Shown: positions 41,730 to 63,434 of the stretch, piece after piece | Layout of the letters: each line of letters starts with the position of its first letter | How positions within the stretch are numbered: the first letter of the stretch is position 1 | Source of the DNA: Aquimarina aggregata | GTDB lineage: Bacteria; Bacteroidota; Bacteroidia; Flavobacteriales; Flavobacteriaceae | NCBI RefSeq assembly: GCF_001632745.1 | Contig: NZ_LQRT01000046.1 | Coordinates: 62,001 to 126,000, forward strand | Length of the DNA: 64,000 bases | Reading direction: 5' to 3' | The notes under the pieces: generated by a model | Databases searched by the model: none | The model's input: only the letters and a program-made list of their open reading frames with translations | Told to the model about the DNA's origin: nothing | Program-made: the position numbers and the translations under genes

Positions 41730-41888
41730 TTAGTGCTTATGTCTTAACTCTGAAGAAACAGATATCTTTTTTCTTCCTTTAGCTCTTCTACGAGCAAGGA
41801 CTTTTCTTCCATTTACTGAAGCCATACGCTCTCTAAAGCCGTGTTTATTTTTTCTCTTTCTTTTCGATGGTTGAAATGTTCTCTTCAT
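41730..41888 (-). CDS. rpmH: 50S ribosomal protein L34
   Basis: 52 residues, [20 protein letters not shown] then [20 protein letters not shown] and [12 protein letters not shown]: an unmistakable bL34, very basic, complete from ATG 41888 to TAA 41730. It has its own promoter at 41963-41993 and terminator at 41674-41705. The gene is short enough to be missed by length-filtered gene calls. Confidence 0.97.
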
Positions 41889-41962: not shown

Positions 41963-41993
41963 CAAATATACGAAGAGTTTTTACTTTGACAAA
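41963..41993 (-). promoter_or_regulatory. rpmH promoter, textbook Bacteroidota consensus
   Basis: Minus strand: TTTG (41993-41990), 19 bases, TATATTTG (41970-41963). It matches TTTG-N19-TAnnTTTG exactly and sits about 75 bases upstream of the rpmH ATG. It fixes the promoter standard used elsewhere in this annotation. Confidence 0.85.
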
Positions 41994-58563: not shown

Positions 58564-60390
58564 ATGAATTACTTTAAACAAATTCTTCGCTTTGCGAGAC
58601 CTTATAGAATCTATGCTATACTAAATATAATTTCTAATATTTTCTATGCACTTTTTGGTACATTAGCAATGGTATCTTTATTTCCTATGCTAAATGTATT
58701 ATTTGGTAATACTGTACCTGTAAAAGTAGAACCTAAATGGGAAGGTATCCTTAAAGTGAAAGAATACTCAGAAAATTACCTCAATTTTTTTGTCACTCAA
58801 AAAGCCGAAGAAGGGAATCAGGACGTACTTATTTTTATGGTAATTCTTGTTATTAGTATGTTTTTTCTGAAAAATATATTTAGCTATATGGCTATGTATT
58901 TTATAACATTTTTAAGAAATGGTGTTTTAAAAGATATTAGAGAAGAGCTTTATGAGAAAACTATGGATTTACCACTCTCCTACTTTTCTGAAAAAAGAAA
59001 AGGAGATACTATTGCAAGAATTACTACTGATGTTCTAGAAATACAACATTCATTTTTATCTATACTAGAACTTATAGTAAGGGAACCTTTAATGATTCTG
59101 TTTACCATATTTGCAATGTTATTGATAAGCCTTAAACTTACCATATTTGTATTCATATTTATACCTGTATCTGGTTTTTTAATTTCTCTTATTGGTAAAA
59201 AGTTAAAAAAACATTCAGATAATGTGCAGAAAGAGCAAGGCTATTTCTTAAGCATCATTGAAGAAACCCTAGGAGGTTTAAAGGTTATTAAAGGATTTAA
59301 TGCAGAGCATATCTTTGGTGGTAAATTTAAAGAATCTACTACTAGGTTTTTTAAATATGGAAACTCATTGGCAAATCGCCAAAACTTAGCATCTCCAACT
59401 AGTGAATTTTTAGGCATTACTGTTATTGCGATATTATTATGGTACGGTGGACAAATGGTGTTAATAGAAAAATCTTTAGCTCCAGGTTTGTTTATTGTTT
59501 ACATGGGACTGGCCTATAATATTCTCACACCAGCCAAAGCAATTTCTAAGGCCAGTTATGGTGTGAAACGAGGTAATGCCGCGGCAGAGCGTGTTCTTGA
59601 AATATTAAATGCATCTTCACCTTTAGAGGATAAACCTGATGCTACACATAAAGTAGACTTTACAACAGATATATCTTTAGAGAATATTTCGTTTAAATAT
59701 GAAGATGAATATGTTCTTAATGATTTTTCTTTGGTAGTTCCTAAAGGAAGTTCTGTAGCCCTTGTTGGACAATCCGGAAGTGGTAAATCCACTATTGCCA
59801 ATTTAGTTACTCGTTTTTATGATGTGAATAAAGGAAGTATTAAGATTGACAACTTTGACATTAAAAACCTTACAAAGAAATCGTTACGAGATCTAATGGG
59901 CCTTGTAACACAAGATTCAATTCTTTTTAATGATACAATTAAAAAGAATTTATTGATAGGACGTGAAAATGCAACAGATAAAGAAATAATAGAAGCTCTT
60001 AAGGTTGCTAATGCTTGGGAGTTTGTAAAAGAATTACCTAAAGGAATTGAGACCAACATTGGAGATAGTGGTAATAAATTAAGTGGTGGGCAAAAACAAC
60101 GATTATCAATCGCAAGAGCAGTCCTAAAAAATCCACCTATAATGATTCTAGATGAAGCTACTTCTGCTTTAGATACAGAAAGTGAGCGATTGGTACAATC
60201 GGCTCTAGAAAACATGATGAAAAACAGAACAAGTATAGTTATTGCCCATAGACTATCTACTATACAAAATTCAAATTTAATCGTTGTATTGCAAAAAGGA
60301 AAAATAGTTGAAAAAGGAACTCATGAAGAGCTTATATCCAAAAATGGGGTCTATCAAAAATTAGTAACAATGCAATCTTTTGATCAATAA
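58564..60390 (+). CDS. MsbA-like ABC exporter (ATPase-permease fusion)
   Basis: 608 residues. Six membrane helices in residues 20-330 followed by the ATPase: Walker A GQSGSGKS, signature LSGGQKQRLSIARA, Walker B MILDEATSALD, H loop IAHRLST. Type IV exporter architecture as in MsbA/lipid A flippases. The stop is 28 bases upstream of the small-RNA array, whose nearest terminator points toward it. Confidence 0.9.
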   Translation: MNYFKQILRFARPYRIYAILNIISNIFYALFGTLAMVSLFPMLNVLFGNTVPVKVEPKWEGILKVKEYSENYLNFFVTQKAEEGNQDVLIFMVILVISMFFLKNIFSYMAMYFITFLRNGVLKDIREELYEKTMDLPLSYFSEKRKGDTIARITTDVLEIQHSFLSILELIVREPLMILFTIFAMLLISLKLTIFVFIFIPVSGFLISLIGKKLKKHSDNVQKEQGYFLSIIEETLGGLKVIKGFNAEHIFGGKFKESTTRFFKYGNSLANRQNLASPTSEFLGITVIAILLWYGGQMVLIEKSLAPGLFIVYMGLAYNILTPAKAISKASYGVKRGNAAAERVLEILNASSPLEDKPDATHKVDFTTDISLENISFKYEDEYVLNDFSLVVPKGSSVALVGQSGSGKSTIANLVTRFYDVNKGSIKIDNFDIKNLTKKSLRDLMGLVTQDSILFNDTIKKNLLIGRENATDKEIIEALKVANAWEFVKELPKGIETNIGDSGNKLSGGQKQRLSIARAVLKNPPIMILDEATSALDTESERLVQSALENMMKNRTSIVIAHRLSTIQNSNLIVVLQKGKIVEKGTHEELISKNGVYQKLVTMQSFDQ

Positions 60391-60417
60391 ACACAGGTAA
60401 ATCAATATTTACAAAAC

Positions 60418-60549
60418 AAAAAAGAGTGCCTCCGCACTCTTTTTCTTCACACAAATCATCTTAATTTAGGGGCTTACTCTAAAAATTAAAACTCACTCTT
60501 ATTAAAAGCTTTCATCTTGGGGAGAATGAAAGCGTTAATTCTTTATTAC
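60418..60549 (-). ncRNA. Array small RNA, copy 1
   Basis: Minus strand: TTTG (60584-60581), 19 bases, TATCTTTA (60561-60554), then ~132 nt ending in terminator GAGTGC-GGAG-GCACTC plus six T. Its C-rich hairpin is the best paired of the five: GCTTTCAT with ATGAAAGC, 8 bp (60508-60515/60526-60533), loop TCTCCCCAAG. Confidence 0.8.
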
Positions 60550-60697
60550 ACTGTAAAGATACTATTTATTTTTAATTACACAAACAAAAAACGTATTTTA
60601 TCTAAAAAAAATAGATTTAATCTAATAAATACATCAATAAACACAATTTTTATAGGTATTTTCTTACAAATTTTAAATTATTAAAATACTGTAAACG

Positions 60698-60828
60698 AAA
60701 AAAGAGTGCCTCCGCACTCTTTTTCTTCACACAAATCATCTTAATTTAGGGGCTTATTCTAAAATCAAAACTCACTCTTATTAAAACTTTTCATCTTGGG
60801 GGAAATGAAAATATTAATTCTTTATTAC
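60698..60828 (-). ncRNA. Array small RNA, copy 2
   Basis: Promoter TTG (60863-60861), 20 bases, TATCTTTA (60840-60833); the -33 tetramer is TTGG at the normal position, the only deviant of the five. Terminator GAGTGC-GGAG-GCACTC plus T run. The loop reads TTCCCCCAAG rather than TCTCCCCAAG. Confidence 0.78.
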
Positions 60829-60968
60829 ACTGTAAAGATACTACTTATTTTCAATTATCCCAATAAAAAATGTATTTTATCTAAAAATATAACATTTCAT
60901 CTGTAAAAATTCATTTTATCATTAATAAAAGTAATACTTTTCTTACTTATTAAAAAATATGCAAAAAC

Positions 60969-61099
60969 AAAAAAGAGTGCCTCCGCACTCTTTTTCTTCA
61001 CACAAATCATCTTAATTTAGGGGCTTATTCTAAAATCAAAACTCACTCTTATTAAAACTTTTCATCTTGGGGAGAATGAAAATATTAATTCTTTATTAC
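60969..61099 (-). ncRNA. Array small RNA, copy 3
   Basis: Promoter TTTG (61134-61131), 19 bases, TATCTTTA (61111-61104). Transcript about 131 nt, same terminator as copies 1, 2 and 4. Nearly identical to copy 2, including much of the spacer. Confidence 0.8.
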
Positions 61100-61239
61100 A
61101 CTGTAAAGATACTACTTATTTTCAATTATCCAAATAAAAAATGTATTTTATCTAAAAATATAACATTTCATCTGTAAACATTAACTTTATCATTAATAAA
61201 AGTAATACTTTTCTTACTTACTTAAAAATACACGAAAAC

Positions 61240-61372
61240 AAAAAAGAGTGCCTCCGCACTCTTTTTCTTCACACAAATCATCTTAATTTAGGGGCTTACT
61301 CTAAAAATTAAAACTCACTTTTATTAAAAACTTTTCATCTTGGGGAGAATGAAAATATTAATTCTTTATTAC
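61240..61372 (-). ncRNA. Array small RNA, copy 4
   Basis: Promoter TTTG (61407-61404), 19 bases, TATCTTTA (61384-61377). Same hairpin loop TCTCCCCAAG and terminator. A one-base insertion in the A run closes the mini-frame found in copies 1-3. Confidence 0.8.
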
Positions 61373-61534
61373 ACTGTAAAGATACTACTTATTTTTAATT
61401 ATCCAAATAAAAAATGCTTTTTATCCAAAATAAATGCGTTTTAATAAAGATTACAACCAAATATTAACAAAAATAGTAGTCTATTTCCTACTTTTATAAA
61501 AACACAAGACTATATGACATTATGGTATAACCAT

Positions 61535-61667
61535 AAAAAAAGAGTGCTTTCGCACTCTTTCTCTTCACACAAATCATCTTAATTTAGGGGCTTACTCTAA
61601 AATTAAAACTCACTTTTATTAAAACTTTTTCATCTTGGGGAGAATGAAAATATTAATTCTTTATTAC
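61535..61667 (-). ncRNA. Array small RNA, copy 5
   Basis: Promoter TTTG (61702-61699), 19 bases, TATCTTTA (61679-61672). The terminator stem is kept but its loop changes from GGAG to GAAA (61542-61557). Body and C-rich loop are conserved. This is the first copy next to the sigma-factor operon, which diverges from it. Confidence 0.8.
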
Positions 61668-61778
61668 ACTGTAAAGATACTACTTATTTTTAATTATCCA
61701 AATAAAAATGCTTTTTATCTATATAAATATTCGTTTAATCTTTATTATTTATTTAATTCTTACAAATTCTTACAATAA

Positions 61779-61857: not shown

Positions 61858-62412
61858 TTGTATTTGGATACCGAAGAAGAAAAAATTTTACTAATTGCAT
61901 TACAGTCAGATAAGGACATTGATAAGGCATTTACTAAACTAGTGACGATATATCATAAACGATTGTATTGGCACATCCGTAATATGGTCAAGAATCATGC
62001 TGACGCAGATGATATATTACAAAATGTATTTCTTAAGGTTTATAAAAGCATAAAAAAATTTAAAGGTGACAGTAAATTATATTCATGGTTATATAGGATA
62101 GCCACAAATGAATCTATATCCTTTTTGACTCAAAAAGCCAAAAGGTATAATATTAGTAATGAAGAACTAAGTCAACAACTAATTCAAAATTTGGAAACAG
62201 ATGTATATTTTGAAGGAAATGTAATTCAAATGAAATTACAAATGGCTATTGCCTCTTTACCACAAAAGCAACAACAAGTTTTCAACATGAAATACTTTCA
62301 AGAATTAAAATACAAAGAAATTTCAGAAATTCTAGAAACTAGCGAAGGGGCGCTCAAAGCATCCTATCATATTGCTACAAAAAAAATTGAAGCTTTTTTA
62401 AGAGACGATTAA
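61858..62412 (+). CDS. ECF RNA polymerase sigma factor, TTG start
   Basis: 184 residues starting at TTG 61858 (a second TTG at 61864 is possible; there is no ATG before region 2). Region 2: HADADDILQNVFLKVYKSIKKFKGDSKLYSWLYRIATNESISFL; region 4: LPQKQQQVFNMKYFQELKYKEISEILETSEGALKASYHIATKKIEAFL. A typical ECF sigma-70. Followed by a one-helix membrane protein and a Spy-like secreted protein, a common flavobacterial trio. The divergent intergenic space holds the start of the small-RNA array. Confidence 0.9.
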   Translation: MYLDTEEEKILLIALQSDKDIDKAFTKLVTIYHKRLYWHIRNMVKNHADADDILQNVFLKVYKSIKKFKGDSKLYSWLYRIATNESISFLTQKAKRYNISNEELSQQLIQNLETDVYFEGNVIQMKLQMAIASLPQKQQQVFNMKYFQELKYKEISEILETSEGALKASYHIATKKIEAFLRDD

Positions 62413-62443: not shown

Positions 62444-62974
62444 GTGAAAGACAAAAAAACACATAAAAACGATAGTGGATTTAAAACACCAGAAAACTAT
62501 TTTGAAAGTTTCAACCATAGACTTTTAGAAAAAATAGCTCTTAGTGAAAAACAAAAAACCTCAACACTAAAAAAAATGGATTCAGGTTTTAAAGTTGCTG
62601 ATGACTATTTTATATCAGCACATGATACTATTTTACAAAAAACTATTGCACCTAAACCAAAAAGCAAATTAAGGAACTTAATATCAACTAAAAATATTAT
62701 ATACGTATCAGGAGTAGCGGCTATGATAGCCTTAATTTTATCTATCTCTATTACTAAAAAATCACCTCTAGATTTTGATACTATTGAAATGACGGCTATT
62801 TATGAATATTTAAATGAAGAAAATATTGAATTAAGTACTACGGATATAGCAGGTTTATTAGATGAGGACATTAACTACATACAAACTTTTGAGGATGAGC
62901 TAGGTAACCATGATAACTTACTAGACTATTTATCTGAAGAAGATTTAGAAAATGAAATTATATTTACCGAATAA
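62444..62974 (+). CDS. Single-helix membrane protein, candidate anti-sigma partner, GTG start
   Basis: 176 residues from GTG 62444, 31 bases after the sigma-factor stop. An N-terminal cytosolic part has two near repeats (DSGFKTPENYFESFNHRLLE and DSGFKVADDYFISAHDTILQ), one membrane helix (IIYVSGVAAMIALILSISIT) and a C-terminal acidic domain outside. Position and topology fit an anti-sigma factor, but no zinc anti-sigma motif is present, so the role is inference. Confidence 0.65.
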   Translation: MKDKKTHKNDSGFKTPENYFESFNHRLLEKIALSEKQKTSTLKKMDSGFKVADDYFISAHDTILQKTIAPKPKSKLRNLISTKNIIYVSGVAAMIALILSISITKKSPLDFDTIEMTAIYEYLNEENIELSTTDIAGLLDEDINYIQTFEDELGNHDNLLDYLSEEDLENEIIFTE

Positions 62975-62984
62975 TTGTTTAAAC

Positions 62985-63434
62985 ATGAAAAAGATACTAT
63001 TACTTACATGTATTATACTTATTTCTAACATTTCCTTTGCTCAAAAGGGATCTAGAGAAAAAGTAAAAGCATTCAAAGTAGCATATATAACTGAGAAACT
63101 AGAATTATCTAGTACAGAAGCACAGGAATTCTGGCCATTATATAATGCTCATCAAGAAACGATATCAAAATTACGAATGCAAAAACGTAAAATCATAAGA
63201 GCTCTAAAAGAGGTTAATGCAAACCAGCAAGATCTTAGTGATGAAGAAGCTACAAAATATTTAGATAATCATTTCAAATTAGAAGAGCAAAAACATCTTT
63301 CTCGTAAAAAACTTCTTACAGATCTCAAAAAAGTAATTTCTAGTAAAAAGATTTTAAAATTAATAAAAGCTGAAACAGATTTTAATAAAAGAATACTCGA
63401 AAAAATTAAAGAGAAAAGAAAAAGAGGCAATTAG
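62985..63434 (+). CDS. Spy/CpxP-like periplasmic protein (sensor of ECF-type sigma factor)
   Basis: 149 residues from ATG 62985, which begins a signal peptide (KKILLLTCIILISNISFAQ); the longer frame to 62952 overlaps the previous gene. The mature part is helical and basic (RVKAF-like start, LELSSTEAQEFWPLYNAHQ, KLLTDLKKVISSKKILKLIKAE), resembling LTXXQ/Spy proteins that sense envelope stress. Flavobacterial homologues are called sensor of ECF-type sigma factor. The terminator at 63417 overlaps its end. Confidence 0.75.
   Translation: MKKILLLTCIILISNISFAQKGSREKVKAFKVAYITEKLELSSTEAQEFWPLYNAHQETISKLRMQKRKIIRALKEVNANQQDLSDEEATKYLDNHFKLEEQKHLSRKKLLTDLKKVISSKKILKLIKAETDFNKRILEKIKEKRKRGN

Follow-up and report, generated by a model that had tools for sequence, protein, structure and literature searches.

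Five tandem repeats in Aquimarina aggregata as probable sibling small-RNA genes of an undescribed regulatory RNA family

In a 64,000-nucleotide stretch of the Aquimarina aggregata genome (hereafter the window), five direct repeats are found on the minus strand, which we regard with high confidence (probability of about 0.93) as sibling small-RNA (sRNA) genes. This agrees with the original prediction, and the reading is supported by the presence of the repeats throughout the genus, by compensatory changes in the RNA stems and by the broken reading frames among the copies. Judged from its sequence, each copy appears to be a transcription unit of its own, which would comprise a tandem-repeat operator, an RpoD-like promoter, an RNA with three stem-loops and a terminator (Table 1). 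Taken as a whole, the data point to an undescribed regulatory RNA family, in which a stand-alone unit of about 130 nt is repeated in tandem as well as at further sites in the genomes.

Table 1. Predicted elements of the sRNA array and the flanking genes (positions in the window).
Feature	Position	Strand	Evidence
ABC transporter gene (membrane and ATPase domains)	58564..60390	+	ORF, Pfam, gene order; convergent with array
sRNA copy 1	60418..60549	-	alignment, fold, terminator scan, model match; ends deduced from promoter and terminator signals
Terminator of copy 1	about 60418-60445	-	terminator scan
Promoter of copy 1 (TTTG-N19-TATCTTTA)	60554..60584	-	pattern match
Tandem half-site operator, copy 1	60590..60625	-	matrix from 100 upstream regions, score 24.5
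sRNA copy 2	60698..60828	-	repeat, alignment, terminator pattern, model match; ends inferred
Promoter of copy 2 (changed -33 box, TATCTTTA)	60833..60863	-	alignment; coordinates by register with other copies
Operator, copy 2	60869..60904	-	matrix score 21.3
sRNA copy 3	60969..61099	-	repeat, alignment, terminator scan, model match; ends inferred
Promoter of copy 3	61104..61134	-	pattern match
Operator, copy 3	61140..61175	-	matrix score 21.3
sRNA copy 4	61240..61372	-	repeat, alignment, terminator scan, model match; ends inferred
Promoter of copy 4	61377..61407	-	pattern match
Operator, copy 4	61413..61448	-	matrix score 24.9
sRNA copy 5	61535..61667	-	alignment, fold z-score -4.26, terminator pattern, model match; ends inferred
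Promoter of copy 5	61672..61702	-	pattern match
Operator, copy 5	61707..61742	-	matrix score 20.6; copy 5 is part of the training set
ECF-type sigma factor gene (Sigma70_r2, Sigma70_r4_2)	61858..62412	+	ORF, Pfam, gene order; divergent from array

The five predicted direct repeats were recovered in register at 60417-61702, with start-to-start spacings of 279, 271, 273 and 295 (repeat family D2), and a body of about 130 nt, as proposed, is borne out in each of them. An alignment of the five copies gave a mean column identity of 90% across approximately 230 bases, the most alike stretch beginning shortly before the promoter and ending with the T run of the terminator; in copies 2 and 3 the spacer is also common to both (95% over 271 bases). 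A search of the 6.19 Mb genome gave these five copies and no others. Promoter and terminator signals are recognisable by sequence in each copy, including copy 2 with its changed -33 box. The minus-strand promoter form TTTG-N19-TATCTTTA, which had been read from the repeats before, occurs four times exactly in the window, always inside the array, where shuffled sequences led us to expect 0.10. The deviating promoter of copy 2, initially described as TTG-N20, is explained by a one-base change from TTTGG to TTGGG, and its register is unchanged. A further promoter that had been cited in support of the promoter model, the rpmH-type TTTG-N19-TATATTTG, is present at 41963-41993 on the minus strand upstream of the ORF 41730-41888, whose product we take by eye to be L34-like. 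The more general pattern TTTG-N19-TANNTTTG was found once with 0.89 expected, i.e. at chance level, and we therefore place weight only on the specific promoter forms. A sigma-70 scan gave no surplus of promoter-like sites over shuffles (10 vs 10.3).

The predicted intrinsic terminator was found as GAGTGC-N4-GCACTC-T5 on the minus strand of all five copies, and a terminator scan reported six sites compared to 0.3 in shuffles. Altogether this motif occurs nine times in the window, five times on the minus and four times on the plus strand, with 0 expected; the plus-strand matches arise because A and T runs flank the hairpin. They fall on the terminator hairpins of copies 1-4 (60424-60444, 60704-60724, 60975-60995 and 61246-61266), and the hairpin of copy 1 may also form the transcript end of the ABC-transporter gene on the plus strand. 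The predicted folds of copy 5 (z -4.26) and copy 1 (z -2.81) are more stable than those of shuffled sequences.

The conserved repeat unit reaches upstream of the promoter into a tandem operator. A half-site resembling GWTAAAAYRCA is found twice in the 100 distinct upstream regions analysed, the second one adjoining the -33 box. In 59 of these regions the distance from the best first half-site to the second is 20 bp (32 cases) or 21 bp (27 cases), and this spacing peak is gone in shuffled upstream regions. It should be mentioned that the set was restricted to copies in which a TTG promoter could be recognised (132, copies at other loci included, thinned to 100). All five window copies carry the operator, with matrix scores from 20.6 to 24.9. 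Because the same operator is found on the copies, those at other loci included, one common regulator probably controls the copies, and it would act on them together. A LytTR-type regulator was considered, and its consensus appears to fit some half-sites; the conserved part GATAAAATAC mismatches, so we make no such claim. The best two operator-matrix matches outside the array (scores 19.8 and 19.2; maximum of 16.7 in 1 Mb of random first-order sequence) are located outside the window at G000:C35 near 134327-134445, where they diverge with starts approximately 80 bp apart; these sites are possible further members of the regulon.

For the search in other genomes, four copies truncated at contig ends and two matches under 40 bits were dropped. 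Of 53 non-redundant copies, eight atypical or decayed ones were left out, and two more window copies were added, giving an alignment (A2) and a covariance model (R1) of 47 copies. The model matches 65 of 66 Aquimarina genomes with 1 to 12 copies each, and the sole genus genome without a match is G031 (2.1 Mb, 89% complete). The RNA is thus kept in almost all genomes of the genus; an absence of the repeat block from relatives had been named beforehand as an argument against sRNA genes. In a family sample of 299 genomes from 236 genera, only two genomes match, both of them Aquimarina, and 297 are without a match under strict filters; given these filters and the weak scores of the divergent lineage within the genus, more remote homologues in other genera may have escaped detection. 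This divergent part consists of 12 genomes, each of which has a single weak match (E 2e-9 to 3e-5), and 11 of the 12 sequences, G059 not among them, were displayed. When a core pattern was searched over 84,980 species with one genome each, 83 stretches matched, and among the 80 listed 78 are labelled Aquimarina and two are Flavobacteriaceae/Bacteroidia bins. A plain DNA comparison yielded ten genomes outside the genus at E 2.4e-5 to 7.4e-4, which we take as chance matches; one of them (G071) is in the family sample and has no model match. Collectively, these searches suggest that the RNA family is restricted to one genus.

The copies share a mean identity of 87% within a stretch vs 77% between stretches, and 79 of 152 copies have their closest relative in their own stretch, as expected from ongoing tandem duplication. 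Long arrays were observed as well, such as 11 copies in L052 (G055:C12:72000-86000) and eight in L182 (G039:C14:102000-116000), whose genome has 12 matches.

Three stem-loops per RNA were obtained with RNAalifold. In the alignment of 47 copies 98.6% of the cells are paired, and double-sided changes affect nine pairs compared to 3.5 in shuffles, none of 500 shuffles reaching nine; their count falls when the partners are slid against each other. The covariation result held when the eight atypical copies were restored (55 copies): 97.0% of the cells pair and 13 pairs are double-changed vs 4.4 in shuffles, a count that none of 500 shuffles attained, and a slide by -3 still yields 10 such pairs. 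The changes are spread unevenly, since hairpin 1 (loop YYCCCCAAG) shows them in four of eight pairs (six of eight with 55 copies), the terminator stem in four of ten and hairpin 2 (loop AGARUAAGCCCCU) in only one of 15 (three of 15 with 55 copies). The low covariation of hairpin 2 is due to the fact that it hardly varies, and hairpin 2 together with the linker GAUUUGUGUGAAG represents the most conserved part of the RNA. The C-rich loop of hairpin 1 is lost in some of the eight restored copies. In nine divergent genomes, other stems replace hairpin 1 and the terminator, and hairpin 2 and the linker stay near GUUUUAAUUUUAGAUUAAGCCCCGAAAUUAAAAUGAUUUGUGUUGAG; deviations in the divergent lineage are found in G050 (loop AAGCUCC, linker AUUUAUGUUAAAA) and in G060, whose hairpin-2 loop reads AAGUUUC and has lost the C run. 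Across 34 sequences from both lineages, pairing in hairpin 2 amounts to 99.3%, and covariation is absent. Since hairpin 2 and the linker were kept while the rest was replaced, they likely form the core of the RNA.

Are these elements indeed RNA genes? A highly improbable alternative would be a family of micro-protein genes encoding GUG-start peptides of the form VSFNFR[V/I/L]SP or AUG-start peptides. At least 125 of 160 copies indeed contain a GTG frame with VSFNFR(V/I/L)SP or a one-residue variant, followed by a stop. However, this frame is truncated by an extra T in copies 1 and 4 of the window and is not kept in the divergent lineage, while the ATGAAA frame is missing in 52 of 160 copies and the remaining copies give 45 different peptides. 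In general, no conserved coding frame was detected, the frames being broken among the copies. Only marginally more credit can be given to the assumption of a DNA element, i.e. a mobile repeat, a binding-site array or a recombination site with promoter- and terminator-like sequences by chance, although the tandem copies with a duplicated spacer and the copies at several loci in some genomes would fit. The compensatory stem changes argue against it, as do the conserved order of operator, promoter, hairpins and T run and the identical gene neighbours in many species. Moreover, neither phage nor plasmid records gave a match to the RNA family, and no viral contig matched one exact core pattern; on the basis of these searches, a phage or plasmid origin was rejected.

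With five homologous non-coding genes in the A. aggregata genome and 1-12 matches in relatives, the sibling sRNA genes form a multicopy family, which was compared with known classes. The suggestion that they could belong to the flavobacterial RNA class Flavo-1 (RF01705) did not hold, since a cmscan of the array listed five matches at E up to 5 and Flavo-1 was not among them. More generally, a described Rfam class had been considered, and no Rfam 15 family reached its gathering score in the window (0 matches). Sub-threshold matches such as BTnc231 (18.7 of 80.4 bits) look like chance, and membership in an Rfam family was thus discarded. In the largely open-access literature screened by titles and listings, neither a paper devoted to small RNAs of Aquimarina nor a description of the array RNA was found.

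In 59 stretches, which were chosen around known copies, the ECF sigma gene adjoins the copies in 34, and the copies are transcribed away from it every time; an ABC-transporter ORF lies directly on the other side in 27 of those 34. Downstream of the ECF sigma gene, almost every main-locus stretch has two small genes (62444-62974 and 62952-63434, plus strand, in the window); their products match no Pfam family at E 0.001, and from its position the former may encode an anti-sigma factor. The neighbours of other copies are E1-dehydrogenase and Band-7 genes or DUF456 and DUF58 genes, the copies lying between the latter two, and some copies are close to a second sigma-like gene. In G003, the ABC-transporter stretch has two low-scoring copies and four better ones are scattered among other genes elsewhere (L186, L185), which suggests relocation of the RNA family. 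The single copies of the divergent lineage occupy several different loci (L191-L197), three of which adjoin an F2-family gene that is also near the main array.

The conserved position beside the ECF sigma gene and the convergent orientation of array and transporter gene could speak for a function in cis only, for example as antisense to the 3' end of the ABC-transporter mRNA or as spacer for the ECF sigma gene. Nevertheless, such a role appears improbable to us, because copies at other loci occur without these neighbours, the divergent lineage carries single copies elsewhere, and the loops and the linker show no strong pairing with the start regions of the neighbouring genes (for the sigma gene, with a crude downstream start only).

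We rather favour, with moderate confidence, a co-regulated and additive family of trans-acting sibling sRNAs with base pairing to mRNAs as the main mode. The RNAs would pair in trans via the unpaired linker UUUGUGUGAAG and/or the C-rich loops CCCCAAG (hairpin 1) and AAGCCCC (hairpin 2), and block the translation start without Hfq, as does LhrC in Listeria. The copy number would set the RNA dose, and we infer additive action on common targets. In the A. aggregata genome no match was found to Hfq or to RRM_1 (RbpB is an RRM protein), and the control genomes were positive for both.

Potential target sites were searched in 1.55 Mb of the same genome with 1239 crudely called genes, of which 1237 had usable starts. 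The linker complement TTCACACA was found nine times vs 1.6 expected at -50..+30 of these starts, eight of the sites at -30..-1, and it ranks at 0.0003 of 32,704 words, an enrichment which is marginal given that 126 RNA words were tested. Within 8 bases after TTCACACA, CAT (10) and ATG (11) are nearly equally frequent. The higher-ranking RNA word AATGAAAA was set aside as trivial because many genes start with ATGAAAA. Strong duplexes of the linker with start regions were slightly in excess (41 vs 17-34 in controls), and compared to mononucleotide shuffles the linker showed no pairing excess at starts. An excess of hairpin 2 pairing over mononucleotide shuffles vanished with better controls. Regarding the C-rich loops, complementary words are mostly at or below expectation at start regions, the G-rich words AGGGGCT (3 vs 1.5) and GGGGGAA (2 vs 1.7) are slightly above, and the computed duplex energies at starts equal those of random sequence. 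Hence, the C-rich loops were rejected as seeds, as they show no excess over random start regions.

The site TTCACACAN{0,8}ATG was then related to a backward control in 58 of the 66 genus genomes, a comparison that ignores kinship and has G031, which is without the RNA, in neither group. The main lineage (47 genomes) gave a ratio of 666/716 (0.93), compared to 1064/1431 (0.74) for the 148 genomes from other genera and 51/122 (0.42) for the ten of the divergent lineage; G007 with 18 sites is opposite to the trend. As other genera without the RNA reach 80% of the main-lineage ratio, most such sites need no sRNA. The site fitting the divergent linker, CTCAACAC, gave 418/483 (0.87) in the main lineage and was weakly commoner in the divergent lineage (60/47, 1.28, p 0.065), there falling to 50/45 (1.11, p 0.28) without G050 with its different linker. 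The directions of these ratios would match a co-change of seed and targets, but the effect is small over other genera and that for the changed site is not significant. Orthologous leaders were compared for two candidate genes, both named by Pfam. An alanine dehydrogenase/transhydrogenase-type gene (30 loci) has kept the site in 9 of 30 leaders, and an acyl-CoA-dehydrogenase-type gene (26 loci, six of them lacking a recognised start) in 11 of 20. Altogether, the role of the linker as seed is weakened by the other-genus control, the CAT frequency and the partial conservation of the leaders. We consider it doubtful that the array represents a genus-specific regulon without Hfq/RRM, in which a dose-tuned array under one tandem operator would use the linker UUUGUGUGAAG to pair with the UUCACACAAA-AUG start regions of many mRNAs, seed and targets having co-changed in the divergent lineage.

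The near absence of covariation in hairpin 2 fits protein binding as well as pairing. The RNA could thus act in principle like CsrB/RsmX, with hairpin 2 and the linker binding an RNA-binding protein that the copies titrate off mRNAs. The stem of hairpin 2 and the linker are nearly unchanged in the divergent lineage although hairpin 1 and the terminator were replaced there, the multicopy layout with a common operator fits titration, and the search for mRNA targets gave none that is convincing. However, each RNA has one such element, while known protein-sponge RNAs repeat their binding motif; furthermore, the motif differs from GGA, and of the candidate proteins searched, Hfq and RRM_1, neither was matched. 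Overall, we regard sequestration as rather unlikely, though clearly less so than a function in cis only.

The array resembles LhrC in its design, as far as the descriptions can be set side by side. LhrC1-5 of Listeria monocytogenes are five almost identical copies of 111-114 nt, in which loops and a single-stranded region bear C-rich (UCCC) motifs; they are all under the two-component system LisRK and control their targets without Hfq (PMC4132741). LhrC pairs via CU-rich sites (PMC4132741), whereas in Aquimarina the pairing of the C-rich loops with start regions does not exceed that of random sequence. Among the families that it covers, the cmscan of the array listed no LhrC family. FopS of Bacteroides thetaiotaomicron is a 14-member paralogous sRNA family, the promoters and terminators of which are of the canonical Bacteroidota type; the RNAs have their seed in a single-stranded 5' stretch, form one terminator hairpin and are bound by RbpB (PMC11697453). 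Same phylum and multicopy nature are common to both; in contrast, the Aquimarina RNA has three stem-loops and tandem arrays, and its genome is without an RRM_1 match. Hence, by description, a 5' seed with a terminator only and RbpB are FopS features that the Aquimarina RNA does not share. Rfp18 of Flavobacterium psychrophilum is a genus-wide conserved and strongly structured sRNA, the deletion of which lowers two metalloprotease mRNAs (PMC9723704). It is likewise flavobacterial, genus-wide and structured, a likeness by description only, and the model had no match outside Aquimarina in the family sample.

In flavobacteria, translation mostly starts without Shine-Dalgarno pairing. Together with the missing Hfq and RRM_1 matches, this raises the question of how base-pairing sRNAs work there. 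If it existed, a regulon of linker and UUCACACAAA-AUG sites would be a Shine-Dalgarno-free counterpart of the C-rich anti-SD sRNAs. A conserved, multicopy and easily deleted family in culturable Aquimarina, with single-copy relatives in the genus, would represent a testable system. Moreover, 1 to 12 copies, probably under one operator, would provide a natural gradient in which to ask why sRNA genes are multiplied in bacteria.
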